20,224 bases of DNA. Origin: a virus. A program made the translations under genes and the position numbers. Location: positions 1 through 20,224 of IMG/VR virus record IMGVR_UViG_3300020194_001055; one strand, 5' to 3'. Below, piece after piece: positions 1 to 18,433 of this stretch. Every line of letters starts with the position of its first letter. Position 1 is the stretch's first letter. The notes under the pieces are model-generated. The model worked only from the letters and a program-made list of their open reading frames with translations, ran no database searches and was not told the origin of the DNA.

Positions 1-48
1 ATAAATGATGAGCAAGCAAAAGACATTTCGAGGATGAGGCGTGGTTAA
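1..48 (+). CDS. C-terminal end of an upstream protein (partial)
   Basis: An open frame runs in from the left edge and ends at TAA 46-48, giving the last 15 residues INDEQAKDISRMRRG. It is short and charged. The following gene starts with GTG at 41 inside this tail, the same overlap style seen throughout the window, which supports it as a real coding end. No family can be named from so little. Confidence 0.5.
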   Translation: MNDEQAKDISRMRRG

Positions 49-841
49 AATATTAGCGGGAATTTTGACATCTAGAGAGACAGATGATATTGTAAGAGCA
101 ATTAAATCAGCACAGCACCGAGATGTTTCTATTGTTGTGATTGTCAACACCAACGACAATGAACTTTATGAATCTGTTAAAACAAAAGTAGCTGAGCTAA
201 AAGTTATTGATGTTGTCAAAACACAATCTAATGGCAATCCTGGCAAAGGCAAAAATTCTGTTATTTCTTATTTTAAGAAAACTGATTATACCCACTTGAT
301 TCCAATAGACGGTGACGATTATTTAGCAAAAGACGGCATAAAATATCTTGTAAAATATATTAAAATACTAGAGCCGGATGTTGTTGGTCAGGGCAATAAC
401 AAAATGTCTATAGGTGATCTAAATACCACGTGGGAAGATTTCGGGCAAAATATTGTAGATCCAAAATACAATTGGTCTGATCTAGAAGAGGTTAGCAAAA
501 AAACAATACTTTCGCTAGTCAAAATCAGAAATTTAAGTGATACTATATTACCCTTTAATAGATTTTTAATATTATCTAAAACTGCAATAACTAAATTTAA
601 ATATTGTGAGGATATAAAAATTGCTGATGATATTACAGCATATTTACAATTATATGCTCAAACTGTAAAGGGTATAAAGTATTACATTACCAAAACAAGA
701 GAACTATATGTTTATGATCTCACTGATCAGGGTGTTTTACATCAATATGTATCTGGTGAGCATCACAAAGATATGCAAACCTTTTTTGATAAGGTAGGAG
801 AATTGAATTTTGATGGGGCAGCAGTTACCTATATTGATTAA
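41..841 (+). CDS. GT-A type glycosyltransferase (family 2-like)
   Basis: A 266-residue protein that probably transfers a sugar from a nucleotide-sugar donor. It opens with a beta-strand/alpha-helix pattern (KILAGILTSRETDDIVRAI) typical of GT-A folds. At residues 90-93 it has DGDD in the context LIPIDGDDYL, the DxD-type motif that binds metal and nucleotide sugar. No membrane segment or signal peptide is visible. The start is GTG at 41, with AGGA at 31-34 as a ribosome binding site 6 bases upstream; no ATG lies near. It overlaps the upstream stop by 8 bases, and the next gene starts inside its 3' end. It is first in a run of genes ending in a carbamoyltransferase, so a role in building or decorating a glycan is a reasonable inference. 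The acceptor is unknown. Confidence 0.75.
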   Translation: MVKILAGILTSRETDDIVRAIKSAQHRDVSIVVIVNTNDNELYESVKTKVAELKVIDVVKTQSNGNPGKGKNSVISYFKKTDYTHLIPIDGDDYLAKDGIKYLVKYIKILEPDVVGQGNNKMSIGDLNTTWEDFGQNIVDPKYNWSDLEEVSKKTILSLVKIRNLSDTILPFNRFLILSKTAITKFKYCEDIKIADDITAYLQLYAQTVKGIKYYITKTRELYVYDLTDQGVLHQYVSGEHHKDMQTFFDKVGELNFDGAAVTYID

Positions 842-1436
842 ACGTATAGATAGCACCTTTCCAGAATGGCCTTTATTAACTGAGTTTACAAAAAAAGCAG
901 AATTAGAATCTAGGGTTATGGCTTGGACTCGTTGGCCATATAATGCAGATTCTTTTTTGTTTAGACTCTATAAGTATAAGATGTATGATAAAGAAAACAA
1001 AGGCTCATACTATGTAGGTGTATACAATGATGAGATTGTGTGTGGTGGGGGACTAGCCAAATTACATGATACAAATTATGCTCATGTTTTTACTAGAATG
1101 TACACACTACCCGAATTCAGAGGCAAAACACAATCTTGGCATCAAGCTTTAACTAAAAATATGGTTAAGGATGTTAAGCGTTTTAATTATGATGGTTATG
1201 TAATAAGTTTTAATGATGAAAACAAGCGTTATCACAAAATGAATTTTAGAAGTAATGATCCCAGTAAAATTAAATATGTTGACGGTAATCCTTATATAAA
1301 AGATAGATTTGTGATTCCCTTTTATCACAAAGAAGACCCGGTATTAATTAATAAAGTAAAACAATGGATTAATTATTATCCGGATAGTATTGAAATGAAA
1401 AATTATTTGGAAAGTATTCATGCAGATAAACAGTAA
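813..1436 (+). CDS. GNAT-like N-acyltransferase
   Basis: A 207-residue soluble protein with the layout of a GNAT acyltransferase. A strand pair VGVYNDEIVCGGG lies at about residues 68-80, followed by a strand and LPEFRGK at about 99-105, where the acyl-CoA pyrophosphate loop and its helix would begin. The loop is not a clean Q/RxxGxG/A, so the call rests mainly on overall pattern. I chose ATG 813; a TTG at 810 is directly in front of it. GGAG at 797-800 could serve as the ribosome binding site. It overlaps the glycosyltransferase stop by 29 bases and the next gene by 17, so it is part of one transcriptional unit. It may acetylate an amino group on a sugar or peptide made by neighbouring enzymes (inference). 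Confidence 0.55.
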   Translation: MGQQLPILIKRIDSTFPEWPLLTEFTKKAELESRVMAWTRWPYNADSFLFRLYKYKMYDKENKGSYYVGVYNDEIVCGGGLAKLHDTNYAHVFTRMYTLPEFRGKTQSWHQALTKNMVKDVKRFNYDGYVISFNDENKRYHKMNFRSNDPSKIKYVDGNPYIKDRFVIPFYHKEDPVLINKVKQWINYYPDSIEMKNYLESIHADKQ

Positions 1437-2034
1437 ATATGTGATGCGTTGGATGGAGTATATGCGAAACAACCCAGACAATGCCTATCGCTTTTCAGAA
1501 TGTTTTTGGCCCAGTCAAATAAAGAGCAAGGATCATATTGTACAATCAGTTGTTGATGATGATATAGATAGACTTTGGCTGAAGTCTTTAGACAGTGTTT
1601 ATATCTTTGGTGGTTGGTATGGTATGTTAGCGCAATGTTTAGATTCAGCATTTCCTAAAATCAAAATAAAAACTATTGATATAGATCCTGATTGTGTAGA
1701 TGTATTCTGGCAAATAAACTATGATTTAGATAATAATATCCTACCAATAACTGCCTGTATGTCAGAGTATGAATATGAAGATGAGCCTAGTTTGATTATT
1801 AATACCAGTGTTGAACATGCTGAACAAAGCATTTATAATATTTGGTGGGAAAGGATACCTGATGGTACAGCATATATTATACAAGGGAATAATTTTTTTG
1901 AATGTGGTGAACATATTAGATGTTCAAAAGATATTGATTCTTTTATTGAAATGAACAATGTACAAAACTGTTTATTTTCAGGTGCTATAGATTGTGAACA
2001 ATTTGAAAGATACTATGCTATTGGTGTTAAGTGA
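1420..2034 (+). CDS. class I SAM-dependent methyltransferase-like protein
   Basis: A 204-residue protein resembling small Rossmann-fold methyltransferases. Motif I is the strand and glycine loop SVYIFGGWYGML at residues 59-70. It is followed by an acidic end of strand 2 (KTIDIDPDC, 84-92) of the kind that binds the ribose of S-adenosylmethionine. A later segment INTSVEHAE, then a helix and DGTAYIIQGNNFF, fits motif IV and the following strand. No target-recognition domain is obvious. The start ATG 1420 lies 17 bases inside the GNAT gene; GTG 1441 and ATG 1444 are alternatives, since no clear ribosome binding site decides between them. The stop shares bases with the GTG start of the next gene (GTGA). 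Function in the modification cluster is inferred. Confidence 0.6.
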   Translation: MQINSKYVMRWMEYMRNNPDNAYRFSECFWPSQIKSKDHIVQSVVDDDIDRLWLKSLDSVYIFGGWYGMLAQCLDSAFPKIKIKTIDIDPDCVDVFWQINYDLDNNILPITACMSEYEYEDEPSLIINTSVEHAEQSIYNIWWERIPDGTAYIIQGNNFFECGEHIRCSKDIDSFIEMNNVQNCLFSGAIDCEQFERYYAIGVK

Positions 2035-3386
2035 ACAATGTTTCTAAGATAGAAGAAGTAAACAATGAGTTAAAAGAAACCTTCAGTAATAGTTTTTGTT
2101 TAGCCAAATGGCTACAAGCATCAATTTATTTACATCGGGGTGAGACTCATAGTTGTTATCATCCGCCTCCGCATAAAATACCTGTAGACACACTAACTAA
2201 TCCTGCAGCTTTGCATAATACCCCTCTTAAGATCCAAGAGAGAAGGTTAATGCTAGATAACCTAAGGCCTCCAGGTTGTCAATACTGTTGGAACATTGAA
2301 GACCTTAAGGGAGAACATTTATCAGACAGAAAAATAAAATCTACAGGGCTATACAATAAAATCAAGGTACAGGAAATCCATGACAATCCTGTTTCAAATA
2401 GTATTAACCCTACTAGATTAGAAATATCATTTAGTGATGAATGTAATTTTAAATGTGGATATTGTCACCCTAAACATAGTAGTAGCTATTACAATGAAAT
2501 AAAAAAATATGGACCCATTGAAACTGTAACTACACATCAATGTTATTTAGACTTTGAAAAGGTAGAAGAAAATAATAACCCCTATGTTGATGCTTTTTGG
2601 AGGTGGTGGCCAGAGTTATCAAATGATTTAACCGTACTTAGAATAACAGGCGGAGAACCATTATTACACGCATCAACAATGAGGCTGTTACAAGAGTTAG
2701 AAACAAACCCGAAACCCAATTTAGAATTGAGTATAAACTCTAACCTAGGTATGTCAACACGCCACGTTGAAAAAGTATCCAAACAAATTAAGATATTGTT
2801 AGATAAGAGATGTATCAAAAGTTTTGTAATGTATACTAGTATGGATACATGGGGTGAACGTGCTGAGTATATCAGAACAGGTTTAGATTGTTCTCTATGG
2901 GAAAAGAACCAAGACACTTATATAAGAATAACAAAACAACCAGTTAGCCATATGTGTACTTTTAATATTCTAAGTGTTACAAGTTTTAAAACATACCTAG
3001 AGAAAGTTTTGTATTGGAGAGAAAAGTATATAGATGTCATTGATTACAACGGTATAAATAATTTAAAGGAAGAAAATATACGCATTGACATACCGTACTT
3101 AAAAGAACCTTTACAATATAATATGCTGTTGTTGCCTAAACAGGAGTATATAAAATATTTTAACGAGTTAGTTGATTTTGCCAAAATTAATTTAACTGAA
3201 ATTGAATTTGAAAAAATAAAAAGACTTAGAGATTATTTTTATCAATCAGACATTGCTAATATTGATGAAGGAAGAAAAAACTTTTATAATTGGTTTGTTG
3301 AATTGGATCAAAGACGAAATACTAATTTTATAAGGACTTTTCCTGAAATGGAAAGTTTTTGGAAGCAATGTCAAACATTATTGTAA
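2031..3386 (+). CDS. radical SAM protein, type A, with N-terminal Cys-rich (twitch-like) domain
   Basis: A 451-residue radical SAM enzyme, expected to bind a [4Fe-4S] cluster and cleave S-adenosylmethionine to start radical chemistry. The cluster motif is C138-x3-C142-x2-C145 (CNFKCGYC), followed by the SAM-binding TGGEP (RITGGEPLL) near residue 210. In front is a domain with C23, C42 (HSCYHPPPH) and the pair C83/C86 (CQYCW), which could hold a second metal or Fe-S cluster. A motif NPYVDAFWRWWPE precedes the GGEP strand and recurs in the two other type A domains in the window. The C-terminal part ends NFYNWFVELDQRRNTNF..TFPE, also shared. The start is GTG 2031, overlapping the previous stop as GTGA; the first in-frame ATG is far downstream, past the N-terminal cysteines. 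The substrate is unknown. Confidence 0.85.
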   Translation: MNNVSKIEEVNNELKETFSNSFCLAKWLQASIYLHRGETHSCYHPPPHKIPVDTLTNPAALHNTPLKIQERRLMLDNLRPPGCQYCWNIEDLKGEHLSDRKIKSTGLYNKIKVQEIHDNPVSNSINPTRLEISFSDECNFKCGYCHPKHSSSYYNEIKKYGPIETVTTHQCYLDFEKVEENNNPYVDAFWRWWPELSNDLTVLRITGGEPLLHASTMRLLQELETNPKPNLELSINSNLGMSTRHVEKVSKQIKILLDKRCIKSFVMYTSMDTWGERAEYIRTGLDCSLWEKNQDTYIRITKQPVSHMCTFNILSVTSFKTYLEKVLYWREKYIDVIDYNGINNLKEENIRIDIPYLKEPLQYNMLLLPKQEYIKYFNELVDFAKINLTEIEFEKIKRLRDYFYQSDIANIDEGRKNFYNWFVELDQRRNTNFIRTFPEMESFWKQCQTLL

Positions 3387-6031
3387 GTGATAAACTAGAT
3401 ACTATTAGCCCTTCCTTTTGTTTAGCAAAATGGAATATGGTTAGCTTGCATCTAACAAATGGAATGACCCATAGTTGTTATCACAACCCGCCACACCCTA
3501 TTTCTCTAAAAGGCCTACAAGAAAACCCAGGACTTCTACACAATACTGATAAAAAAATTACCGAGCGCACTCAAATGCGAAATGGTGAACGACCTGATGG
3601 GTGTTCTTATTGCTGGCGTATAGAAGATTCAGGTCATAAAAGTGACAGACATTATCGTGCAGATGAATGGTGGAATGGTGTAGACTTTGAAAAAATTTCA
3701 AAGGGTGATTTACATTTAGACAGCAATATCACCCCTGCATATGTTGAAGTAAATTTCAATCAAACTTGTAATTTCAAATGTATATACTGTAGCCCACATT
3801 TAAGTTCTTCATGGGAAGAAGAAATAGAGGAACACGGCCCTTACACAATGTATTTAGGCAGTCACAATAACATTAAATCTCTGATTGATAAAAAGTTGAT
3901 GCCTAAGAGAACAGCACAAAAAGATAATCCTTATGTACAGGCATTTTGGAAATGGTGGCCTGAAATTTATCCCAATCTAAAAATATTTAGAATGACGGGC
4001 GGTGAACCTCTTGTAGATCACAATACATGGAAGGTCTTGGATTATGCTAATGAAAATCCAAATCCAAATCTTGAAATTAGTGTTACAAGTAATTTTTGTC
4101 CTCCGAAACCTGAGTTGTTTGACAAATTCATAAACAAACTAAAAGCTTTGGAAGAAGTACGTGTTTACAATTTTGATAACAAAGAAAGATGTGGACCCGG
4201 TATAAAATATTTTAATATGTTTGTCAGTTTGGACAGTGTAGGCAAACAAGCTGAATATATTAGAACCGGTTTAAACTATAATACACTAGAATCAAATGTT
4301 AAGAGATTTTTAAACGAAACCTCAGGAACAAGTTTAACATTTATTAATACTTTTAATATGTTGAGCATAACGAAGCATTTGGAATTTTTACAAATGATTC
4401 TAAAATTGAGACAAGAGTATAGTAAAAAAAATCAGAGTGAAGTATCAATACAAATACCCAATAAACCCTCATACCTGCCATTTGTTAGAGAAAAAACACA
4501 AAGAATATGGTTTGATGTTCCCCTATTAAATACACCGTCTTGGTTAAATATAAAACTTTTAAGTGACATACCTGAATTTGTTTCTATGTTAGCTGATTGT
4601 ATTGCCTTTATGCAAGATAACAAGATGAATGATAACCTTGTTGGTTTTTATGATTACGAAATTGATAAGGTCCAAAGAAATTATGATATATTGAAAGAAG
4701 GAACAAGGCAAGCTGAACTTGTTGTTGATAAAAGAAGATTCTGTGATTTTGTAGATGAATTGGATAAACGCAGAAATACAAACTTTCAAAATACTTTTCC
4801 TGAATTGGCTCAGTTTTATACTGATATAAAAAACGGGGTACAATCTCAAAAAGCATTAAAGTATGAATACAACATCAACAATATTAACTTAGTACATTTT
4901 GAGTTGAGTAATAAGTGTAATGCTGCTTGTCCTAGTTGTGCAAGAAATGCCGGCGGTGTTAAATTACCTTGGTTAGATACAAAAGAATTATACCTAGATG
5001 ATGTTAAAAAAATAATGGAGGGTGCTAGATTTTTACCGAGAACTAATGTGTTATATTGTGGTAATTATGGAGACCCAGCAACAGCAAGGGATTTGATACC
5101 TATTATTAAATGGTTTCAAGAACAAACCGGCAAATACCACCAGAGGATGCAAATTGTAAATACAAATGGCGGATTAAGAACTAAAGCTTTTTGGAGAGAG
5201 CTTGCTTCATGTTTTCCTAAAGGTGAAGGTAACGGTAGGGTTACTTTTAGTGTAGATGGACTCAGTGATACAAATCACATTTATAGAAAAAATGTAGTTT
5301 GGTCAAAATTGTGGGAAAACATGAACGCATATGTTGAGGCAGGCGGTGAGGCGAGATGGGAGTTTCTTATTTTTGGACACAACAAACATCAGGTGGAAGA
5401 GGCAAGAAAAATTGCTGAAGATTTGGGTATGGAGTTTACACCGAAACGTCCTTTTGGCTTTGATGCTTCCGGCGGCCGTTTAGATCAGCAAAAATATACA
5501 CACGCTTGGAATAGACAACATGAATACGAATACAGTATAGTATCAGCAGAAGATCCAGATACTGGACCGGTAGTGTTACCTACAATGGTGGGAGAAAAAC
5601 AAATACCAACACAAGAAGAACCTAAACTTGCACATAAAATTATTGCTACAGATGCTGAAAATAAATTTTCTAAAGAGTCCTGTATTAAGTGTAAGTCTTT
5701 AGGACAAGATAAACAGGGATGGCATCAGATATATATAAGAAGTGATGGTCATTTGTTGCCCTGTTGTTTTATGGATGGTCTTACACACAGCAAACCATAC
5801 AATTTTGCATCTCAACAAATGAAGGATACTATATTAAAAACTTATCCTCATTTAAATTGTCTTGACAGACCTATAGAAGATGTTATAATGGATACACAAG
5901 TAAAAAAAGCATTTTTTGATCCAATGAATTTAAAAAACGCCAAAGAAGGGAAGCCAATGTTCTGTGTAGATCATTGTGGTGACAACAATTTTGTAGATTT
6001 GTTATATAGTAAATATGAAGAAAAGAGATAA
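3368..6031 (+). CDS. fused double radical SAM protein (type A + type B, SPASM-like C-terminus)
   Basis: An 887-residue protein containing two complete radical SAM domains. The N-terminal half repeats the type A layout of its neighbours: C18, C37, C79/C82 in front, C134-x3-C138-x2-C141 (CNFKCIYC), NPYVQAFWKWWPE, then TGGEP. The second half starts at about residue 505 with CNAACPSC (C517, C521, C524). It has CGNYGDP where a GGEP motif would be, and ends in a SPASM-like set of cysteines (C772/C775, C799/C800, C866/C870). Its second half closely resembles the free-standing type B gene at 7468. I chose ATG 3368; the TTG at 3359 is less likely. It overlaps the upstream gene by 19 bases. A tandem fusion suggests two successive radical steps on one substrate, or channelling between them (inference). 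Confidence 0.85.
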   Translation: MSNIIVSDKLDTISPSFCLAKWNMVSLHLTNGMTHSCYHNPPHPISLKGLQENPGLLHNTDKKITERTQMRNGERPDGCSYCWRIEDSGHKSDRHYRADEWWNGVDFEKISKGDLHLDSNITPAYVEVNFNQTCNFKCIYCSPHLSSSWEEEIEEHGPYTMYLGSHNNIKSLIDKKLMPKRTAQKDNPYVQAFWKWWPEIYPNLKIFRMTGGEPLVDHNTWKVLDYANENPNPNLEISVTSNFCPPKPELFDKFINKLKALEEVRVYNFDNKERCGPGIKYFNMFVSLDSVGKQAEYIRTGLNYNTLESNVKRFLNETSGTSLTFINTFNMLSITKHLEFLQMILKLRQEYSKKNQSEVSIQIPNKPSYLPFVREKTQRIWFDVPLLNTPSWLNIKLLSDIPEFVSMLADCIAFMQDNKMNDNLVGFYDYEIDKVQRNYDILKEGTRQAELVVDKRRFCDFVDELDKRRNTNFQNTFPELAQFYTDIKNGVQSQKALKYEYNINNINLVHFELSNKCNAACPSCARNAGGVKLPWLDTKELYLDDVKKIMEGARFLPRTNVLYCGNYGDPATARDLIPIIKWFQEQTGKYHQRMQIVNTNGGLRTKAFWRELASCFPKGEGNGRVTFSVDGLSDTNHIYRKNVVWSKLWENMNAYVEAGGEARWEFLIFGHNKHQVEEARKIAEDLGMEFTPKRPFGFDASGGRLDQQKYTHAWNRQHEYEYSIVSAEDPDTGPVVLPTMVGEKQIPTQEEPKLAHKIIATDAENKFSKESCIKCKSLGQDKQGWHQIYIRSDGHLLPCCFMDGLTHSKPYNFASQQMKDTILKTYPHLNCLDRPIEDVIMDTQVKKAFFDPMNLKNAKEGKPMFCVDHCGDNNFVDLLYSKYEEKR

Positions 6032-6033
6032 TC

Positions 6034-7467
6034 ATGGTAGATAAACACATAGATAAACTGATAGAAACTAGAGATATTCTTAATGATGTCGGTAATGGAT
6101 TTTGCCTTCAGAAATGGCGTAATGTAACTCTATATTTGCATATGGGAGATAATCATAGTTGTTATCACCCACAACCTAATCGTGTACCAGTAGAAGAGGT
6201 TTTAGCAAATCCTAAAGCAATTCATAACTCAAAGTTTAAAAAACAAGTTAGAAAAGAAATGCTTGAAGGTAAAAAGCCTAGCGAATGTTATTACTGTTGG
6301 AATGTTGAAGAACTAGAAGGCAACCATTACAGTGATAGAATGATACACAATTCCAGCACTTGGTTAGATGCAAAAAAAGAAACCGAAGAAATTAGAAATA
6401 TGCCATGGGACGCTGATGTAAATCCTTATTATGTTGAGGTTAGTTTTGGCGCTGGTTGTAATTTCAAATGTGGGTATTGTTGTCCTCAAGCATCTTCACA
6501 GTGGCAGGATGAAATTGAAAAACATGGTAATTATGATATTAGTTTCAATCAGTATGGTATTGATTATTTAGAACATACTAAAGTTTATAAAGATGATGAA
6601 TACAACCCATATGTTGAAGCATGGTGGGAGTGGTGGCCAGAACTTAAAAAGGATTTGAAAGTATTACGTCTTACAGGCGGAGAGGCATTGTTAAATCCAA
6701 ACACTATGAAAATGTTTAAGTTAATACAAGAAAGTGATGATTGTCAGCACTTAGAAATTAATTTGAATAGCAACATGGGTGTGTCTACCGGCCGTGTTAC
6801 TAGGCTTGCTGAAGCTGTTAAAGCAATGCTTGAAAACAAAAAAATTAAAGACTTTAAGTTATACACTAGCTTAGAAGCATGGGATGAGCGAGCTGAGTAC
6901 ATGAGACGTGGACTTAGAATGAAACAGTGGGTCACAAATGTCGAAACTTATTTAGAAATTGTACCCGATACTCCTATTAGTGTTATGTGTACTTATAATA
7001 TATTAAGTGTTGCCTCTTTTAGACCTTTCTTGGAAAACATATTAAGACTTAGAAAGAAATGGAATAAAACACCCGGCAATAATAGAATTATATTTGATAC
7101 CCCGTATCTAAAAGAGCCTCCACATTGGATGATAAACTTATTACCTCAAAGTTTCGGTAAATATATTGATGAAGATTTACAATTTATCAGTGATAATATT
7201 TCCACAGATGGAGTCACAGGATTTTGGGACGTTGAATACGAAAAACTAAAACGAGTTAGAGATTATTTTTATCAAGGCGGGGCGCGTGTAACAGATAAAG
7301 TTATCAGAAACGGCAGAAAAGATTTTTACAATTTCTTTACTGAATACGATAAGAGATCTGATCTTAGCTTGTTACAAACATTTCCAGAGTATGAAGATTT
7401 TTATTATCTATGTCAAGAACTGGTTGAATCAGATGCAGAAAACCTGATACCGGTTAAGGAAATTTAA
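6034..7467 (+). CDS. radical SAM protein, type A (third copy)
   Basis: A 477-residue paralogue of the 2031 protein and of the first half of the 3368 protein. The front cysteines are C24, C43 (HSCYHPQP) and C85/C88 (CYYCW). The radical SAM motif is C142-x3-C146-x2-C149 (CNFKCGYC), followed by a further Cys at 150. The aromatic motif is NPYVEAWWEWWPE, and the SAM motif reads TGGEALL, with Ala replacing the usual Pro. The tail carries NFFTEYDKRSDLSLLQTFPE, matching the ends of the other A domains. The start ATG 6034 is 2 bases past the previous stop. Its own stop is directly followed by the ATG of the type B gene, so A and B are adjacent here as separate proteins, while in the 3368 gene they are one chain. 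Confidence 0.85.
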   Translation: MVDKHIDKLIETRDILNDVGNGFCLQKWRNVTLYLHMGDNHSCYHPQPNRVPVEEVLANPKAIHNSKFKKQVRKEMLEGKKPSECYYCWNVEELEGNHYSDRMIHNSSTWLDAKKETEEIRNMPWDADVNPYYVEVSFGAGCNFKCGYCCPQASSQWQDEIEKHGNYDISFNQYGIDYLEHTKVYKDDEYNPYVEAWWEWWPELKKDLKVLRLTGGEALLNPNTMKMFKLIQESDDCQHLEINLNSNMGVSTGRVTRLAEAVKAMLENKKIKDFKLYTSLEAWDERAEYMRRGLRMKQWVTNVETYLEIVPDTPISVMCTYNILSVASFRPFLENILRLRKKWNKTPGNNRIIFDTPYLKEPPHWMINLLPQSFGKYIDEDLQFISDNISTDGVTGFWDVEYEKLKRVRDYFYQGGARVTDKVIRNGRKDFYNFFTEYDKRSDLSLLQTFPEYEDFYYLCQELVESDAENLIPVKEI

Positions 7468-8757
7468 ATGAGTGATTATAGCTGGCCAATATCTACTGAA
7501 ATAACAGCGATGCATCTAGAATTAACTACTAGGTGTAATGCTGCCTGTCCAATGTGTCCGAGACACATTGATAATGGTAGGGCAATAAATCCAAATCTAA
7601 TATTGGACGAAATTACTTTTGAAAATTTCAAGGAATGGTTTTCACCTGAATTTTTAGCACAACAACGCAGGGTGTATGCTTGTGGCAATTACGGTGATCC
7701 AATTGCTGCCAAAGACACTTTAGAAATTTTCAAATACATTAGAGAACATTCACCTTTTTGTAACCTAGTTATTCATACAAATGGAAGTGCGAGAAATGAA
7801 AAGTGGTGGGCAGAATTAGCTACTGTAATTAATGGTTATCGCCCTGACCCATTATGGAAAGGAGAAGATTATGTTGTTTTCTCTGTAGATGGCCTTTGGG
7901 ATACAAACCACCTATACAGAAGAAATACAAATTTTGATACAATATACAGAAATATGCAAGCGTTTACTTCTGCAGGTGGTAAAGCAAGATGGGACTATAT
8001 TGTTTTTGAACACAACGAACATCAGGTAGAAGAAGCCAAACAAATGGCAGAAGATATGGGGTTTGAGTTCTTTAATATTAAGAGAACTACCAGATGGCAA
8101 GGATATAACATTGAAACAGATAACAGAGGATTCTATGAGGTTAGAAATCCTGATGGTACAAATTATTTGTTGAGACAGGCTAAAGATAGTAAATATCAAC
8201 ATGAAAATGCTATTGAGTTTAAACAAAAGGTTAGATTGATACCTCAGTATATTACCAACGATGAATTTAAACGTATGTTTCCTAGCATGCACGCTAAAGA
8301 TACAATGTCTGTTTTTGATCCTGAAACCAAAGAACAGATTACCATTAAACACAATACATTGGGTGTAGACTGTCGTGCAAGATTAGGTAAGTATCAAAGC
8401 AATAATGAAATATTTGTTACAGGTACGGGTCATGTTTATCCTTGTTGTTTCCTCGGAGGCGAACCCTGGAGAGCACCCAGTAATTACAATGCCAAAGATA
8501 CTTCAAAAGAAATGGTACAACTTAATGGCGGTATGGATTCTATTAGTCTACATGAAAGCACATTAGATAATATTATGCTCACACCACTGTTTCAAAGATA
8601 TTTACCCATGAGTTTTGAAAAAGGATGTAATATGAGAAGTTTTCAATGTTCGTCTTGTTGTGGTGATGAATATAATCAATTAGATCAGGGTGAATTGGGC
8701 GATAATAACAGATCATTGAGCAAAAAACAAGAGAGAGAATCACACAATGATGGATGA
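7468..8757 (+). CDS. radical SAM protein, type B, SPASM-like
   Basis: A 429-residue radical SAM enzyme without the N-terminal Cys domain; the cluster motif is near the start at C23-x3-C27-x2-C30 (CNAACPMC). The place of GGEP is taken by CGNYGDPIAAKD, as in the second half of the 3368 protein. Other shared blocks are IHTNGSARNEKWWAEL, FSVDGLWDTNHLYRRN and EHNEHQVEEAKQMAEDMG. The C-terminal part has C302, C326/C327 (YPCCFLGG) and C387, C394, C397/C398, consistent with a SPASM or twitch auxiliary cluster domain. ATG 7468 follows the preceding TAA with no gap. SPASM radical SAM enzymes commonly modify peptides, proteins or sugars; which applies here cannot be told. Confidence 0.85.
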   Translation: MSDYSWPISTEITAMHLELTTRCNAACPMCPRHIDNGRAINPNLILDEITFENFKEWFSPEFLAQQRRVYACGNYGDPIAAKDTLEIFKYIREHSPFCNLVIHTNGSARNEKWWAELATVINGYRPDPLWKGEDYVVFSVDGLWDTNHLYRRNTNFDTIYRNMQAFTSAGGKARWDYIVFEHNEHQVEEAKQMAEDMGFEFFNIKRTTRWQGYNIETDNRGFYEVRNPDGTNYLLRQAKDSKYQHENAIEFKQKVRLIPQYITNDEFKRMFPSMHAKDTMSVFDPETKEQITIKHNTLGVDCRARLGKYQSNNEIFVTGTGHVYPCCFLGGEPWRAPSNYNAKDTSKEMVQLNGGMDSISLHESTLDNIMLTPLFQRYLPMSFEKGCNMRSFQCSSCCGDEYNQLDQGELGDNNRSLSKKQERESHNDG

Positions 8758-10141
8758 AAAAAGCTCACACATCTTCAGAACAGGTAACTGGAGATTAGAC
8801 AAAGAAAATCAGCGAGTGATGCAACACGAAACAACTATTTGTGTATATCCGTGGAATTGTATTAGTGTGGGATCTAACGGCAATTTGAGACCTTGCTGTA
8901 ATGCTACAAATCCTGTTATGTTGGAGGATGATAAATTAATAAACGGTGCACCTAATAATGCCAACCTAATTAGCAATGTTAATAATGGTAAAGATCAGAA
9001 GGATGTCCTTATAACTAAGACTCATCAGGAGATACGCGAGTCTATGTTACGAGGTGAACAACATCCTATCTGCAATCGTTGCTGGGAACAAGAAGATCAA
9101 GGTGTGCCGAGTTTTAGACATGATGCTAATTTAAGGCACCCAGATGATTATGAAAGAATTTTTGAACAGAAAACAACCGAGCCACTTGTTACTCGGCTTG
9201 AACTAGATTTAGGAACAAAGTGTAATCTTAAATGTAGAATGTGTAGTCCATTTAGTAGCTCATTAATACAGAAAGAAATTAACGCAAATAGAGAACATAA
9301 TGATGGTGAAATTGTAGATTATTACGGATTGCACCCTATAGACAAAACAAAAGATTTTAAACTGACTGAATGGGTTGATTTTGTGGATATTAAAGATCTA
9401 CTAAAAGATCATATTCATAATGTTAATTACATTTATGTTATAGGTGGTGAACCTCTAATCATTGATGAACATTTGGAGTTATTAGAATGGATTATTGAAC
9501 TTGATTTGGCTAAAAATATGCGACTTCATTACAATACCAATGGTATTAAAATTGGTAAAGACTTTATTGAAATGTGGAAGCGGTTTAAATCAGTACAAAT
9601 GGCTACAAGTATAGATGGTTATCAGGAACATTACGAATATGTAAGATTCCCAGCCGCCTGGAGTAAAATAGATAAGAATTTCAAAAGTATTTTTTCTATC
9701 CCTAATATCAATTGTAGTATAAGCACAACGGTTCAAAACATTACACTTGAACGTATGGATGAATTTATATTGTGGGCTGAGGAAATCGGCTCAAGTGTAT
9801 TTTTCTTGCACGTAGATTATCCTAATTTTTATGCTCCTTGGGTGATGCCAGAGGACAAATATTACGAATCAATAAATAAACTATATAAGATAAAAGATAG
9901 AATTAGTGAGACTAATAGATTAAATTTTAAGTATTTGTTATCACGTTTGGAGTCTGACGGAGAAAAATATTTTTCAAAAGAATATGATGCTGAACGTAAT
10001 AAAAGAATGAGAGACTTTGTGAACAAATCGTTGGTTTTAGATAGAATCCGAGGACAAAATTTGTATGATTTTCATCCTTGGGCTAAAGAAATAGATGTAT
10101 CACAAGGAATCGAAATAAATGAGATACGAGTACAAGGGTAG
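8747..10141 (+). CDS. radical SAM protein, type C (twitch-domain type)
   Basis: A 464-residue radical SAM enzyme with a front Cys-rich region different from type A: C32, C38 and C50/C51 in CVYPWNCISVGSNGNLRPCC, then C109/C112 (CNRCW). The radical SAM motif is C159-x3-C163-x2-C166 (CNLKCRMC), followed by the SAM motif VIGGEPLI. The front motif resembles a twitch/SPASM half-site placed N-terminally, the form usually annotated as twitch-domain radical SAM in marine T4-like phages (from memory of the family). Start ATG 8747 has a GAGAGAGA tract at 8731-8738 as a ribosome binding site; ATG 8750 is a second option. It overlaps the type B gene by 11 bases and the next gene by 23. It is the most diverged of the radical SAM set. 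Confidence 0.85.
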   Translation: MMDEKSSHIFRTGNWRLDKENQRVMQHETTICVYPWNCISVGSNGNLRPCCNATNPVMLEDDKLINGAPNNANLISNVNNGKDQKDVLITKTHQEIRESMLRGEQHPICNRCWEQEDQGVPSFRHDANLRHPDDYERIFEQKTTEPLVTRLELDLGTKCNLKCRMCSPFSSSLIQKEINANREHNDGEIVDYYGLHPIDKTKDFKLTEWVDFVDIKDLLKDHIHNVNYIYVIGGEPLIIDEHLELLEWIIELDLAKNMRLHYNTNGIKIGKDFIEMWKRFKSVQMATSIDGYQEHYEYVRFPAAWSKIDKNFKSIFSIPNINCSISTTVQNITLERMDEFILWAEEIGSSVFFLHVDYPNFYAPWVMPEDKYYESINKLYKIKDRISETNRLNFKYLLSRLESDGEKYFSKEYDAERNKRMRDFVNKSLVLDRIRGQNLYDFHPWAKEIDVSQGIEINEIRVQG

Positions 10142-11051
10142 AACGGCAGAATTTTCCCGTATAGTAGCGTATGGTTGTAGTTTTACTGAAGGGCATGAAA
10201 TATTAGATTATGAGCATAAGTATAAAACACTAAAAACTCCAGAAGAAATAGATAACTGTAAGAAAAAATATAAGGATGCGGGAAAATCTATTTACCAGTT
10301 TTATCAGGAGAATCTTTCCTTCGAAAGTGGTTTTTCTGACGGTGTAATATCTGGACCCATGATTTCTAGAACAAGATCTAGAGCATGGCCGGCAATGTTA
10401 GCGAAAAGGTTTGGTTCAAAATATATTAATCGAGGATTTTCTGGCACTGGGATGTGGAATCACATCCAGACATATGAACAAGACACTGCTAGTGGATTAA
10501 TTAAAGATGATGATTTAATAATTTTTGGTTTGACAACGGCTTCTAGATTTTTTTGGCTTCCACCAAAACTCGGCCCCCAGATTAGGGGGTTTATGGATAC
10601 CCCATATACACTAATGCCGGGTATGAGATTCCAAAATGTTTCAGAGTTTTTAAGCCAAAAATTTTTAGATTTGTTTGATACTGAATATGCAAATCCAATG
10701 TTCACTTGTGCTGTGGCGTTTCAAGCAATTAAATATATAGAGTATCTTTCACACGCAAGAGGAGGTTTGGCTCTTATGATACCGGCCGCGGCAGACCTTA
10801 CAACATACGGAGCCGGTTCGGTACCAAATCATCCACATATGTTTTGGGAAATGGGGTATGATGCTTCATACGCACTTACTCAACCCTTTAAAAAAGATTT
10901 TGAAAAAGATTTGTTATCTTATGTAGAAGTAGAGGGTTGTCAGAACGCTGAAAGGCTTGAAAGAACTGGTGGTTATCATACGTATTTTCACCCAAAGTTA
11001 GAGGCATATCAAGAGTTTGTAGACGAAATATACGAGGCAATTAAATGCTAA
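10119..11051 (+). CDS. SGNH/GDSL-hydrolase-like protein
   Basis: A 310-residue protein with the outline of an SGNH hydrolase, a family that removes or moves acyl groups on sugars and lipids. Block I is VAYGCSFTEG with the nucleophile candidate S21. Block II is the glycine segment NRGFSGTGMWNHI around residues 104-116. Near the C-terminus FHPKLEAY offers H291 as the catalytic histidine. Two things are odd. Block III (FGLTTASRFFW) lacks the usual Asn, and the Asp expected three residues before the histidine is Thr288. The enzyme may therefore use another arrangement or be a binding protein. The start ATG 10119 lies inside the end of the type C radical SAM gene. It lies between the radical SAM genes and the carbamoyltransferase, which favours a role in O-acyl editing of the same product (inference). 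Confidence 0.65.
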   Translation: MRYEYKGRTAEFSRIVAYGCSFTEGHEILDYEHKYKTLKTPEEIDNCKKKYKDAGKSIYQFYQENLSFESGFSDGVISGPMISRTRSRAWPAMLAKRFGSKYINRGFSGTGMWNHIQTYEQDTASGLIKDDDLIIFGLTTASRFFWLPPKLGPQIRGFMDTPYTLMPGMRFQNVSEFLSQKFLDLFDTEYANPMFTCAVAFQAIKYIEYLSHARGGLALMIPAAADLTTYGAGSVPNHPHMFWEMGYDASYALTQPFKKDFEKDLLSYVEVEGCQNAERLERTGGYHTYFHPKLEAYQEFVDEIYEAIKC

Positions 11052-11149
11052 CCAAAATAAAAAACTGGTATACGAGATGGAAAAATCGTAGAGAAATGAA
11101 AAAACGTCTTAAGAAATTACGTGAGATGGATCCATTTACGTATGATTAA
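11045..11149 (+). CDS. 34-residue basic peptide of unknown function
   Basis: A small open frame, ATG 11045 to TAA 11147-11149, encodes a 34-residue peptide very rich in Lys and Arg with a short acidic/aromatic end (DPFTYD). It overlaps the SGNH gene stop by 7 bases and the start of the carbamoyltransferase by 8, fitting the coupled layout of the operon exactly and filling what would otherwise be a 90-base gap. That is the main evidence that it is real. It has no leader-core pattern with Cys, Ser or Thr runs, so it is not an obvious substrate peptide for the radical SAM enzymes, but that possibility is not excluded. Confidence 0.55.
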   Translation: MLTKIKNWYTRWKNRREMKKRLKKLREMDPFTYD

Positions 11150-12569
11150 TTGGGGTGTTAGTGCAGGATTTCACGATGCCGCACTAACAGTTATAGCTGA
11201 CAATGAGATCGTGTTTGCCGGCCACGCAGAACGGTATACCAAAAATAAAAACGAAAAGAATCTTTCAATTGGATTAATTTGTGACGCATTAAAATTCGGT
11301 GAACCTGAAAGTATACATTGGTATGAAAATCCTATCTTAAAAGCAACAAGACGGTGGTGGGTAGGTCAGAACAACCCTTGGGTCAATCCTATAGATCACT
11401 TTAATAATGTGGGTTACGGTCCTAAATGTAAAATTAAATGGGGCAATCATCACAGGTCACATTGGGCAGCTGGATATTATACAAGACCTTTTGATGAATG
11501 TGCTACACTTGTTATTGATGCGATAGGCGAATGGATTACTACAAGTATTTGGAACGAAGATAAACTTGTATTTAATCAAAATTATCCAAACTCAGTGGGT
11601 TTATTTTATTCTGCCTTTACTGATAGAATAGGACTTAAACCTAATGAAGATGAATATATCCTTATGGGCATGGCAGCATACGGTGATCCTGATAGATTCT
11701 ATAATGAAATATCTGATTTTTTAACGAGGGGTACTAATCTTCATCGAGGTGTTCGTTGGTGGAAACCTGAACTTACTAGTACACAAGATTATTTTGATAT
11801 AGCAGCAGCAACACAAAAAGTATACGAAAGTAGACTAAAAGCTTTACTTTACATAACAAAAGAATTGACACAAAAAAATAATATTGTTTTCATGGGCGGG
11901 TGTGCATTAAACTGTCTTGCCAATAGAATACTACCCACATATTTTAAACAACATTGGATAATGCCAAATCCGGGTGATGCGGGTTCATCATTGGGTGCGA
12001 TACTTGCACACACACAAGAAAGAGTTAGGTTTACAACCCCCTTCTTGGGTCACAATATTGAGGGAGAATATCCGGTTGACAACCTACTACAAGAACTGTT
12101 ACAATGTGGGATAGTCGGAGTAGCAAATGGGCGAGCAGAATTTGGACCAAGAGCATTGGGCAATCGCTCACTTCTTGCTGACCCTCGTGGACAAAAAATG
12201 AAAGATAAAGTTAATGCTATCAAACAGAGACAAGAATTTAGACCGTTTGCTCCTGTTATAAGAATAGAAGATGCGGCGGATAATTTTGAAGTTGGTAAAT
12301 TTTTTCATTCACCGTATATGCAGCAAGTGGTGAAATGTAAATATCCTGAAAAGTATCCTGCTATTGTACATAAAGACGGAACAAGTAGAGTACAGACAGT
12401 AACAAGACACAGCAATATCGGGTTGTACACTTTGCTTACACAATGGAAAGAAAAAACAGGATGCCCTATGCTACTTAATACTAGCTTAAATATTAAGGGT
12501 ATGCCTATAGTTAATGATAAAACAGATGCTTTAAAATTTGAAAAACATTATAAAGTAAAAGTTTATTAA
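11142..12569 (+). CDS. carbamoyltransferase, NodU/CmcH/TobZ family
   Basis: A 475-residue enzyme expected to make carbamoyl-adenylate from carbamoyl phosphate and ATP and pass the carbamoyl group to a hydroxyl, typically on a sugar. The N-terminal Kae1-like domain shows H103-x3-H107 (GNHHRSHWAA), the metal-binding HxxxH, then IDAIGEW at 125-131, GGCALNC at 252-258 and PGDAGSSLGA around 277-286, whose Asp is the likely third metal ligand. The C-terminal YrdC-like domain has GPRALGNRS at 335-343 and FRPFAP at 366-371, hallmarks of the family. At 475 residues it is shorter than typical family members of roughly 550-600. I chose ATG 11142, since the upstream in-frame GTG (11121) would prepend residues that break the conserved N-terminal strand. 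It closes the accessory run. Confidence 0.9.
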   Translation: MINWGVSAGFHDAALTVIADNEIVFAGHAERYTKNKNEKNLSIGLICDALKFGEPESIHWYENPILKATRRWWVGQNNPWVNPIDHFNNVGYGPKCKIKWGNHHRSHWAAGYYTRPFDECATLVIDAIGEWITTSIWNEDKLVFNQNYPNSVGLFYSAFTDRIGLKPNEDEYILMGMAAYGDPDRFYNEISDFLTRGTNLHRGVRWWKPELTSTQDYFDIAAATQKVYESRLKALLYITKELTQKNNIVFMGGCALNCLANRILPTYFKQHWIMPNPGDAGSSLGAILAHTQERVRFTTPFLGHNIEGEYPVDNLLQELLQCGIVGVANGRAEFGPRALGNRSLLADPRGQKMKDKVNAIKQRQEFRPFAPVIRIEDAADNFEVGKFFHSPYMQQVVKCKYPEKYPAIVHKDGTSRVQTVTRHSNIGLYTLLTQWKEKTGCPMLLNTSLNIKGMPIVNDKTDALKFEKHYKVKVY

Positions 12570-12587
12570 AACATAAATAAAAGTATT

Positions 12588-12878
12588 ATGGGACAAGTAA
12601 TACTTTTTAAACGAAAACCCAAAGTACCTGAAGCTAAAGTAGTAGGTCACAGAATATTATTCTATACAGATGAGGAAATAGACATAACACTTTTAGCTCT
12701 AAATATGTATGGGTTCGATAAACTTAGATATACAGTGGAAACTATGAAATCTCTAGAACCCTTGTATATTAAAGCCTGTTTGTGTGAACTAAGACGCAGT
12801 GATCTCATATCCTCTCATGGCAGGAGAGTTATAAATATGATTATTAATAATATGGAGGAAGTACGTGATGCCAACTAA
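12588..12878 (+). CDS. small phage protein of unknown function
   Basis: A 96-residue protein beginning MGQVILFKRKPKVP, with a basic N-terminus followed by a predominantly helical, mixed-charge region (FYTDEEIDITLLALNMYGFDKLRY). I do not recognise a named family, though it has the look of conserved T4-like marine phage hypotheticals. CATAAATA at 12572-12579 lies just upstream. The 3' end overlaps the next gene by 11 bases, so the two are probably co-translated. No catalytic motif or membrane segment is seen. Confidence 0.7.
   Translation: MGQVILFKRKPKVPEAKVVGHRILFYTDEEIDITLLALNMYGFDKLRYTVETMKSLEPLYIKACLCELRRSDLISSHGRRVINMIINNMEEVRDAN
12830..12837 (+). promoter_or_regulatory. TATAAATA, possible late promoter ahead of the 12868 gene
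   Basis: An exact T4-late-type word 30 bases before ATG 12868; a start near 12843 would leave a short leader containing GGAGG. The same chance argument applies as for the other TATAAATA sites, so this is weak. Confidence 0.3.
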
Positions 12879-14919: not shown

Positions 14920-15220
14920 GTTTCCTAACCCAACAAATCCGACGGCCGAATTAATCAAGCGCCGTCGGTTACAGATACTTGTCCACTCTTGCATCTACTA
15001 TGCGCTTGACACCAATATCATTAGCGACTATACTTATGATAAATGGGCTAGAGAACTTGAGCAGCTAATGAAGGATTATCCTAACGCTTACAGTGATAGG
15101 TTTGATGCAGAATTTGACAAGTGGGATAGCTCATCAGGTTTTGATTTACCGATGCGAGACCCGTGGGTGTTAAAAACAGCAGAGAGGTTAATATACAATA
15201 ATAATGAATTACCTAATTAA
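14906..15220 (+). CDS. free-standing Ia (NMN-binding) domain of NAD-dependent DNA ligase
   Basis: A 104-residue protein whose middle matches the N-terminal Ia domain of LigA, the part that binds the nicotinamide mononucleotide half of NAD. LigA has a pattern ..Y[YH]xxDxPxxxDxEYDxLxxELxxLExxHP; here the segment runs from H27 through Y31, Y32, D35, D41, Y44, D45, E50, L51 to P59 with the same spacing. Aligned by eye to E. coli LigA, these supply counterparts of Tyr22, Asp32, Tyr35 and Asp36, with Tyr in place of His23, as in many other LigA proteins. No adenylation core with KxDG follows, so it cannot be a ligase alone. It could bind NMN/NAD or work with another protein. It is the last gene of the coupled set and overlaps the next start by 17 bases. 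Confidence 0.7.
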   Translation: MKHYKFPNPTNPTAELIKRRRLQILVHSCIYYALDTNIISDYTYDKWARELEQLMKDYPNAYSDRFDAEFDKWDSSSGFDLPMRDPWVLKTAERLIYNNNELPN

Positions 15221-15899
15221 AGGGACAGGAAGAACTGGTAGTAATTTGTTATTACATTATCTGGCTGCTTGTGGTTATGAACCTGTAGAATTAAACGCTC
15301 TGTTATACTATTCGTCAAAAGATCAATATCCTTTGATAACCTATTACAGAACAGGGAAAACCGAAAAATTAATACATCAGAATAATTTAGTTATACATGA
15401 CCATTCTGGTTGGTTACCTTTGAATACACTTGATTATAACTTAATTATCTCGCGCAGGGATAATAAATTGGATCAGCTGTGTAGTCATTATTTGGCTATA
15501 AACACCAAACAATATACTCCAGATGAATATACAGATGAGATTAAAATTGAACCCTTTAATGTCAATGTAGAACAAGCATTGAGAATGAAAGATCTTTTAA
15601 TTAAAGCAGATAACTTGATGCAAGAGCTGTTAATACTTCCTTGGTTATCAGGAACAGTAATTACATTAGAAGACCATTTATCCAAAGGCCCGGGGTTTTT
15701 ACAAATGTTATTGGGTGAGACTCCTAAAAAACCTTTTAATATGGATAGAGAAAAAAATCCTCATAGTGCAAAAGATTATATTATGAACTATGAGGACCTA
15801 AAAAAATCTTACAATAATAATTGTGTTACAAAAAATGTTTGTAATGATACAATAGATTTTGAGATTATATTGCAAAAATTTGTTGATAGTTTTTATTAG
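15204..15899 (+). CDS. sulfotransferase-like protein
   Basis: A 231-residue protein with an N-terminal P-loop-like motif KGTGRTGSNLL at residues 6-16, the PAPS 5'-phosphate-binding loop of sulfotransferases (compare GxxRSGSTLL). Near the C-terminus NPHSAKDYIMNYEDLKKSY fits the late conserved region of such enzymes. The 3'-phosphate-binding Arg/Ser strand may be LIISRRDNKLDQ around residue 80. It probably moves a sulfo group onto a sugar or lipid, but the family is diverse. ATG 15204 overlaps the LigA-Ia gene; GAGAGG at 15182-15187 is rather far upstream. The TAG stop ends on the first base of tRNA-Arg. Its base composition is lower in GC than the genes just before it, suggesting a separately acquired gene. 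Confidence 0.65.
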   Translation: MNYLIKGTGRTGSNLLLHYLAACGYEPVELNALLYYSSKDQYPLITYYRTGKTEKLIHQNNLVIHDHSGWLPLNTLDYNLIISRRDNKLDQLCSHYLAINTKQYTPDEYTDEIKIEPFNVNVEQALRMKDLLIKADNLMQELLILPWLSGTVITLEDHLSKGPGFLQMLLGETPKKPFNMDREKNPHSAKDYIMNYEDLKKSYNNNCVTKNVCNDTIDFEIILQKFVDSFY

Positions 15900-18110: not shown

Positions 18111-18111
18111 T
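18084..18111 (+). promoter_or_regulatory. consensus sigma70 promoter for the tmRNA, overlapping a T4-late-type TATAAATA
   Basis: TTGACA at 18084-18089 and TATAAT at 18106-18111 are exact sigma70 consensus boxes with a 16-base spacer, inside the end of the glycosyltransferase gene. The predicted start is near 18118, just before the tmRNA acceptor half. TATAAATA, the T4 late promoter consensus, follows at 18111-18118 and would start near 18124. The RNA genes and perhaps the cell wall hydrolase could thus be transcribed both early by host sigma factor and late by phage factors. The sigma70 boxes are seen; the late use is inference. Confidence 0.75.
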
Positions 18112-18120
18112 ATAAATATA

Positions 18121-18357: not shown

Positions 18358-18433
<76 letters not shown>

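Follow-up and report, generated by a model that had tools for sequence, protein, structure and literature searches.

Which product could a marine phage make with an overlapping run of genes for a glycosyltransferase, radical SAM (rSAM) enzymes and a carbamoyltransferase? The window, the whole 20,224-nucleotide stretch of DNA analysed here, carries such an island at positions 41-12569. We propose, at a probability of about 0.5, that it encodes a cytosolic sugar-tailoring pathway of a T4-like marine myovirus, in which rSAM enzymes would remodel a sugar that is then decorated with methyl, acyl and carbamoyl groups, with a virion protein as the probable target. The host is probably an alphaproteobacterium.

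Organization of the island

The initial annotation described a single overlapping run of ten genes at 41-12569. Checking of the ORF coordinates found all ten in place, and nearly every junction abuts or overlaps. The glycosyltransferase and GNAT-like genes overlap by about 29 b, the GNAT-like and methyltransferase-like genes by 17 b, and the latter and rSAM A by 4 b; A and B also overlap, B and C are 2 b apart, C and D abut, D and E overlap by 11 b, and E and the SGNH gene by 23 b. The apparent gap of about 70 b upstream of the carbamoyltransferase gene (CARB) is an unlisted 34-aa ORF, an eleventh gene coupled to both neighbours, as its ATG overlaps the SGNH stop and its stop overlaps the CARB ATG. 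The features are as follows.

41-841, + strand: GT2-type glycosyltransferase (PF00535), 266 aa, opens the run
810-1436, + strand: possible acyltransferase of GNAT type, 208 aa, with weak matches
1420-2034, + strand: class-I SAM methyltransferase-like protein by motif, 204 aa, kept at the island start
2031-3386, + strand: rSAM A, N-terminal twitch plus rSAM, extra class-C-type paralogue (tree)
3359-6031, + strand: rSAM B, N-twitch rSAM of class B with a further SPASM rSAM of class D fused to it
6034-7467, + strand: rSAM C, class C, most conserved member
7468-8757, + strand: rSAM D, class D, SPASM type (PF04055 31.8 bits; tree)
8747-10141, + strand: rSAM E, class E, N-twitch/SPASM (tree)
10119-11051, + strand: SGNH/GDSL hydrolase or O-acyltransferase-like protein, catalytic residues conserved
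11045-11149, + strand: unlisted 34-aa gene, MLTKIKNWYTRWKNRREMKKRLKKLREMDPFTYD, charged helix and near-invariant C-terminal DPF[IT]Y[DE]
11142-12569, + strand: O-carbamoyltransferase CARB (NodU/TobZ/NovN type), 475 aa, the constant anchor at the island's downstream end
12588-12878, + strand: conserved 96-aa ORF after CARB, outside the pathway

The last ORF is the first gene of a fixed phoH-exonuclease-endolysin-gp59 flank. The island lies between a curli region and phoH, not adjoining tail fibres; its upstream side is cut off, and since the record starts at base 1, it may extend further upstream. Promoter and terminator scans gave signals no better than shuffled sequence.

The gene list given earlier holds for the glycosyltransferase, the rSAMs, the SGNH-like protein and the carbamoyltransferase, but the GNAT assignment falls below every cut-off and the methyltransferase is named from its motif. 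The GT2 protein scores 25.4 bits against the Pfam cut-off of 23.3 for PF00535, and its homologues likewise head the islands of L161, L163, L166 and L167. The GNAT-like protein reaches 16.1 bits of the 20.7 set for PF00583 (E 0.014), has a weak GNAT match in the PDB (E 0.024), and yielded zero homologues in other loci by BLAST within the fetched loci. In the methyltransferase-like protein, GWYG and DxD columns are invariant among 12 aligned relatives, the class-I motif being assigned by eye; its PDB match is sub-threshold (E 0.073), and a spurious score to Destabilase was the only one among Pfam families. The gene lies 5' of the rSAMs in L002, L008, L163, L170, L187, L190, L215 and L240. The Pfam score of the SGNH protein is weak (E 0.006, below the family cut-off); Ser21, Asn104 and His291 are invariant in an alignment of 13 diverse relatives. 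A peptide-pattern scan returned no SGNH relatives, whereas BLAST inside the fetched loci did detect them. CARB contains both family domains above cut-off (PF16861, E 3.1e-52; PF02543, E 1.3e-35) and matches phrog_1601 with 315 bits. Among its closest solved relatives are NovN (E 2e-49) and TobZ (E 1e-37), both sugar carbamoyltransferases. ATG 11142 is a likelier start for CARB than GTG 11121.

Radical SAM proteins

Five rSAM proteins had been counted. The five ORFs stand, but they hold six rSAM domains, with CxxxCxxC in 6/6. The tree resolves four orthologous classes among them, namely B, C, D and E. The likely start of rSAM B is ATG 3368, and its two halves are separate genes in L007 (9-1511 and 1502-2653). 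The curated cut-off of 170 bits for NCBIfam NF033640 ('twitch domain-containing radical SAM') is passed by A (275), the N-half of B (323), C (285) and E (304), whereas D, of the C-terminal SPASM type, lies outside the family with 36.7 bits. The C-half of B is, like D, an rSAM of the SPASM type. A dN/dS of 0.02-0.04 indicates that the rSAM genes are under purifying selection. Pairwise distances of B and C are correlated (Mantel r 0.54), which is not taken as proof because shared ancestry confounds it.

Predicted models of C and D have pLDDT values of 89.9 and 83.4, respectively. Model C matches SkfB (a peptide enzyme), BlsE and DesII (sugar enzymes) and MoaA, tied at Z 12-13; model D matches SkfB, SuiB, BlsE and DesII, tied at Z 17-18. 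SkfB is the top match of both, level with the others, and the fold comparison of the two models does not separate sugar from peptide enzymes. An identity as viperin (pVip) was rejected, as the window proteins score at most 25.7 bits against the NCBIfam cut-off of 180 and the PADLOC matches are partial and score well under their cut-offs.

Relatives in phages and Bdellovibrionota

Class C has 173 relatives in IMG/VR and none among 50,697 phage records, where class E gave two weak matches and class D one. Synteny and orthology extend across 40+ dereplicated loci. All 29 dereplicated CARB-anchored loci with at least 8 kb upstream carry N-twitch rSAMs of the same family before CARB; they also contain the v10 (GT-like) gene (19 loci), SGNH (17), a nucleotide-sugar dehydrogenase (13) and an NDP-sugar epimerase-family gene (7). 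Gene content varies among relatives yet comes from one narrow pool, and it is not random. The island is therefore a conserved system rather than random cargo. Orthology, synteny and this narrow pool bear out the earlier reading as a phage modification pathway and show its conservation across marine viral contigs. The minimal version (L215 and L240) lies on one strand with a single rSAM C, in the order methyltransferase, rSAM C, NDP-sugar epimerase/dehydratase, v10, SGNH, SGNH, micropeptide and CARB.

In relatives of the host recognition cluster (HRC) type such as L014, which also has a nucleotide-sugar dehydrogenase, rSAM arrays come after tail collar/fibre genes and GT8-type glycosyltransferases. 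The pelagimyophage HRC arrangement, an rSAM array adjoining tail fibres, is thus found in L014-like relatives but not in the window island. Relatives also carry a curli operon, with a curli-type CsgG gene adjoining the island, and up to 11 NF033640-type genes occur per marine T4-like phage record. In profile comparisons with solved structures, the c2 family matches glycogenin/GT8; the c1 and v10 profiles matched none, and their glycosyltransferase assignment is therefore by eye only. ORFs with at least three TM segments make up 0/10 in the window island and 0.6% of phage island ORFs, versus 7.1% in bacterial loci. Flippases, polymerases and membrane glycosyltransferases were not encountered in phage islands.

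Among the 101 genes neighbouring class B/C relatives in Bdellovibrionota, the commonest Pfam families are Glycos_transf_2 (8), Glycos_transf_1 (6) and Carbamoyltransferase (3), and DegT aminotransferase, GDP_Man_Dehyd/Epimerase and GDSL also occur. In some Bdellovibrionota, class-C relatives are adjoined by PqqD (PF05402, E 1.7e-11) and have small S74 proteins nearby, one with a leader-like N-terminus, which favours a peptide substrate in those bacteria.

The DPF[IT]Y[DE] micropeptide

Relatives of the 34-aa protein occur in 38/42 CARB-type loci, with a variable N-terminus, a near-invariant C-terminus and codons that vary at third positions. Six large records contain the strict DPF[IT]Y[DE] pattern, each of them once. 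The conserved micropeptide was not found in HRC-type rSAM arrays, and L255, L263 and L317 have a micropeptide-CARB pair but no visible rSAM. Therefore, the micropeptide tracks CARB, not the rSAMs. It may serve as an adaptor for a late step. A search with tblastn against the phage records gave zero matches, possibly because low-complexity filtering masks the sequence. The only DNA pattern match in HTVC008M was rejected, being antisense to annotated genes. The 34-aa gene, the sixth rSAM domain and the four-class module were missed in the initial annotation.

Proposed pathway and alternatives

In the proposed sugar-tailoring pathway, a host nucleotide sugar would enter, and relatives might also make one through the phage nucleotide-sugar dehydrogenase and epimerase. 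The N-twitch/SPASM Fe-S rSAMs of classes C (plus A), B and E, with class-D SPASM partners, would then abstract a hydrogen from the sugar, leaving it epimerised, dehydrogenated, deoxygenated or rearranged. GT2 would transfer the modified sugar to an acceptor, and its ends would be capped with methyl groups, acyl groups (by SGNH and possibly GNAT) and carbamoyl groups (by CARB). The most likely acceptor, on positional grounds, is a virion protein, for instance a tail fibre. The basis of this pathway is the genes, their orthology and purifying selection, the company of sugar genes in phages and bacteria, and the near absence of membrane proteins; from these we infer that the rSAM substrates are sugars, as well as the step order and the target. 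A decorated sugar, favoured in the initial annotation, is the best-supported class of product, given the sugar-gene neighbours in phages and Bdellovibrionota and the homology of CARB. Against this reading, no nucleotide-sugar enzyme is encoded in the window.

The rSAMs could instead act like RiPP maturases on the backbone of virion (fibre) proteins, introducing cross-links, epimers or oxidised residues, with the sugar genes as separate cargo of a variable region. SPASM/twitch rSAMs are known mostly from peptide maturation, SkfB is the top, though tied, match of both models, and many relatives have rSAM arrays directly after tail-fibre genes. The PqqD and S74 proteins of Bdellovibrionota point the same way, but PqqD is found in 0/18 large phage records; its presence beside the bacterial relatives leaves room for the peptide option raised earlier. 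However, HRC-type arrays have no conserved micropeptide, sugar genes stand alongside in phages and chromosomes, and a lone rSAM C lies in the compact sugar operon of L215/L240, so we regard backbone modification as doubtful. A RiPP or redox-cofactor product on the 34-aa protein, with DPF[IT]Y[DE] as a core that is rSAM-modified, glycosylated and carbamoylated, would agree with its conserved C-terminus, third-position codon variation, single copies and frequency in CARB-type loci. It is improbable, as rSAM arrays and micropeptide occur apart and a PqqD-type recognition protein was not found in the 18 large relatives. It is similarly a long shot that the 34-aa protein is a ribosomal acceptor, on whose C-terminal tail a radical-modified glycan would be built in the cytosol in place of a membrane lipid carrier, the glycopeptide going to the virion or being released.

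The same sugar chemistry might also deliver its product to host lipopolysaccharide and block superinfection. Such a role was proposed for pelagimyophage glycosyltransferases (PMC7029224), and the GT8-type enzymes and the CsgG gene, with its cell-surface function, fit it. We consider host-surface alteration rather unlikely, for the islands are nearly free of membrane proteins, though host machinery could serve. Phages of other lineages glycosylate and otherwise modify DNA bases, but the thymidylate-synthase/hydroxymethylase family PF00303 is above cut-off in 0/18 large relatives and no hydroxymethylase is among the island genes. DNA base hypermodification, already ranked as a weaker option, is thus very improbable.

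Comparison with known systems

A 2020 study described radical SAM cassettes lying among glycosyltransferases and tail fibres in pelagimyophages (PMC7029224), and a 2017 study one T4-like marine genome with 12 rSAM genes, TARA_ERS488813_N000010 (PMC5332604). The earlier statement that no single known pathway has this exact gene set is fair, but rSAM cassettes in such phages were already known. The pelagimyophage cassettes resemble the present system in their T4-like marine phages, the hypervariable island with glycosyltransferases and tail fibres, and the curli operon, also carried by relatives of the window. The window island is of a second kind, with the curli region-phoH interval, the CARB anchor and the DPF[IT]Y[DE] peptide, and the main text of PMC7029224 describes neither a structure nor classes nor a function for its cassettes. 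TARA_ERS488813_N000010, likened by description rather than sequence, shares many rSAM genes in a single phage, which PMC5332604 reads only as Fe-S metabolism. We found no function for these rSAM cassettes in the literature, and no description of the four-class/CARB module or the micropeptide.

A, the N-half of B, C and E belong to NF033640 by score, a subfamily-level name without function; the present analysis divides these members into orthologous classes and assigns partners to them. CARB shares both domains with NovN, TobZ, GdmN and NodU, of which NovN and TobZ act on sugars, but is shorter and coupled to the micropeptide and rSAM enzymes. In the predicted models, BlsE and DesII are in the leading fold group of both and BtrN ranks lower, with D only; the likeness is of fold only and tied with peptide enzymes, and the twitch is N-terminal here but C-terminal there. 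Mycofactocin/PQQ pathways likewise place a glycosyltransferase, a methyltransferase and a SPASM rSAM close to a short gene resembling a precursor, whose product is conserved at the C-terminus (an invariant Val-Tyr in the mycofactocin precursor). In contrast, the 18 large phage records have no PqqD-type protein, and the phage peptide tracks CARB, not the rSAMs.

The conserved module and its micropeptide are what is new here. A list of cassettes becomes a defined module, with a B and C core, D and E partners, a constant CARB anchor and a minimal operon (L215/L240), tied to the same rSAM family in predatory Bdellovibrionota. If the proposed pathway is correct, widespread ocean phages would use new radical chemistry on sugars together with virion or host glycosylation.

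The enzyme set recurs across hundreds of uncultured phages and predatory bacteria.

Organization and conservation of the radical SAM island

The stretch 41-12569 had been described as one phage modification pathway, and its ten genes were borne out. Its five radical SAM (rSAM) ORFs, termed A to E, stand as counted, but they hold six rSAM domains. The GNAT call is weakly supported, and that of the methyltransferase comes from a motif alone. The carbamoyltransferase is present, with its start probably at 11142, and one small gene absent from the initial annotation was added:

10119-11051, SGNH/GDSL-like protein (SGNH)
11045-11149 (+), 34-aa ORF (the micropeptide)
11142-12569, O-carbamoyltransferase of the NodU/TobZ/NovN type (CARB)

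A scan with CARB as the query retrieved 80 loci, 42 after dereplication, which share the frame variable island, CARB, 96-aa ORF, phoH, exonuclease, endolysin and gp59. N-twitch rSAMs lie upstream of CARB in all 29 loci with at least 8 kb of upstream sequence, accompanied by the glycosyltransferase-like family v10 (by eye) in 19, SGNH in 17, a nucleotide-sugar dehydrogenase in 13 and an NDP-sugar epimerase-family gene in 7. Because the same frame and partner families are repeated, with recurrent sugar genes, the gene content at this locus in relatives is not random. A minimal island, found in the relative loci L215 and L240, consists of methyltransferase, rSAM C, epimerase/dehydratase, v10, two SGNH genes, micropeptide and CARB.

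The rSAM C query found 173 relatives in IMG/VR, 80 of which were kept, but none among 50,697 phage records. Sorting of 201 rSAM sequences from 44 dereplicated loci and the window yielded four classes, B, C, D (SPASM type) and E. Classes B and C occur once each in nearly all of these loci, mostly as neighbours in the order B-C. The window has an additional C-type paralogue, rSAM A; its rSAM B is joined in one ORF with a second D-type protein, for which L007 has a gene of its own. Median dN/dS values for close pairs are 0.02-0.04 in all classes. The N-twitch family has two to eleven matches in each of 18 large phage records, mainly grouped at one or two sites.

Most class-C relatives have the array after tail collar/fibre genes and GT8-type glycosyltransferases, the 'host recognition cluster' (HRC) of PMC7029224; the window island is a second type. 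A QueE-like protein (L020 3750-4601; phrog_2076, E 6.5e-53) is encoded in the core region that adjoins HRC-type arrays. Such phages were already known to carry rSAM cassettes (PMC7029224, PMC5332604). In the searched literature, which covers few subscription papers, no description was found of the class structure, minimal operon, micropeptide or partner set shared with predatory bacteria.

A conserved micropeptide next to CARB

The ORF between SGNH and CARB encodes MLTKIKNWYTRWKNRREMKKRLKKLREMDPFTYD, ending in DPF[IT]Y[DE]. DPFIY was the top 5-mer in an unbiased count over small intergenic ORFs and occurs in 29 of the 42 CARB-type loci; counting DPFTYD, DPYTYD and longer forms as variants, the micropeptide reaches 38 of 42. 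No equivalent was found in HRC-type arrays. When all viral contigs were scanned by pattern, at least 62 new loci with such a 20-80 aa ORF came up, not fully independent since part of the contigs are identical or related to earlier loci. Among the 62 matches listed, 57 have CARB and/or rSAM genes, 50 have CARB, and in 31 the ORF lies within 150 bases of CARB. Since the search pattern fixes DPFIY, finding it invariant in that scan is no evidence by itself; apart from the pattern, evidence comes from the neighbour genes, the 5-mer count and a KKRLKELRKR-type helix upstream of DPFIY. Third codon positions vary for D, P, F, I and Y, showing that selection acts at the protein level.

The micropeptide tracks CARB, because rSAM arrays without it exist, as do peptide-CARB pairs without visible rSAM, and the pair may move independently of the islands. 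Such pairs (L263, L267, L313, L317 and L319) mostly follow a primase-like gene, by eye. We infer that the micropeptide acts as an adaptor for a late step; a bolder option is a precursor or acceptor.

Bacterial relatives

A B/C profile scan of GTDB genomes gave 79 loci, almost all from Bdellovibrionota; a few (L082, L118, L119, L123, L148 and L159) look like phage contigs. Family members above the cut-off were present in 16 of 59 Bdellovibrionota genomes versus 0 of 14 controls. Among 101 immediate neighbours, glycosyltransferases 2 and 1 are commonest, carbamoyltransferases next, with aminotransferase, GDP-mannose dehydratase/epimerase, ABC exporter and GDSL genes also found. This chromosomal set, arrived at independently, resembles that of the phage islands.

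In Bacteriovoracaceae, the same rSAM genes lie by a PqqD-type protein, signal-peptidase-like proteins, a pilin-like fibre and a small S74 protein whose N-terminus resembles a leader. Class-C rSAM, PqqD and the small Peptidase_S74 protein occur together in the Bacteriovoracaceae-type loci L134, L136, L137, L141, L153 and L156, several with a pilin-like fibre or ABC exporter too. In predatory bacteria these loci may encode a system that modifies peptides or fibres. Elsewhere in Bdellovibrionota, near genes for ribosomal proteins or Obg, a lone class-C rSAM adjoins a protein whose GxSDLD motif looks nucleotidyltransferase-like by eye (L083, L087, L096, L108, L109 and L151); the family of this neighbour recurs by class B/C genes in 16 loci.

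Proposed sugar pathway

The capping of a sugar typically involves genes for a carbamoyltransferase, an SGNH protein and a methyltransferase, placed next to those for NDP-sugar enzymes and glycosyltransferases. The decorated sugar favoured by the initial annotation was strengthened by such company, by NovN and TobZ being among the closest solved relatives of CARB, and by the similar bacterial partners. We propose that a cytosolic pathway modifies a sugar, whose carbamoyl, SGNH and methyl steps would cap the product. We give this full mechanism about even odds, and sugar chemistry overall, whatever its destination, about two in three.

The same chemistry could instead serve serotype conversion at the host surface. 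ORFs with at least three predicted membrane segments make up 0.6% in either phage set versus 7.1% in bacterial loci, and none of the ten in the window island. The islands therefore encode no lipid-linked assembly or export, which favours a cytosolic acceptor, e.g. a virion protein, although host machinery could supply both. A peptide substrate would suit the Bacteriovoracaceae neighbours, which count against the sugar reading; however, PqqD is found in none of the 18 large phage records. AlphaFold models of rSAM C (pLDDT 90) and D (pLDDT 83) have ordinary rSAM folds and do not discriminate, because peptide-acting and sugar-acting enzymes are level among their best matches. DNA hypermodification, initially judged a weaker option, is unsupported, with no hydroxymethylase family member above the cut-off in the same 18 records.

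Virus, host and flanking genes

The window spans the whole of a 20,224-base virus record. Downstream of the island lie phoH, exonuclease, endolysin, a gp59-type loader and the start of gp32, and a permuted tmRNA is present at 18070-18403 (RF04321, 111.5 bits, E 2e-21; ARAGORN tag ANDDVYALAA); by these sequence features the virus is a T4-like myovirus. Prochlorococcus/Synechococcus myoviruses are among the best matches of its exonuclease (~50% identity). A tmRNA, with varied tags, is also present in L007, L008, L178, L188, L199, L215, L228 and L231. The permuted form is characteristic of Alphaproteobacteria, though not of them alone. A CsgG gene, known from SAR11 myophages (PMC7029224), is present in relatives of the window, and together with the tmRNA makes an alphaproteobacterial host likely.

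In the closest relatives a curli-type operon (L002 115-6287, also L004 and L008) lies immediately upstream of the rSAM island. Its CsgG, the only member profile-tested, matched at E 4e-50; the operon also has curlin-repeat-like, FecR-like and CHASE2/cyclase-like proteins. Further ORFs lie outside the island:

15204-15899, 231-aa protein with N-terminal GTGRTGSNLLLHYL P-loop, resembling a sulfotransferase by eye
16718-18110, two ORFs of 247 and 223 aa, glycosyltransferase-like by eye

The 231-aa protein had no match in Pfam, and its homologue precedes the methyltransferase in L170. The 223-aa ORF, second of its pair, matches phrog_28018, a family without an assigned function, and homologues of both ORFs occur in L170, L178, L204, L213 and L216.
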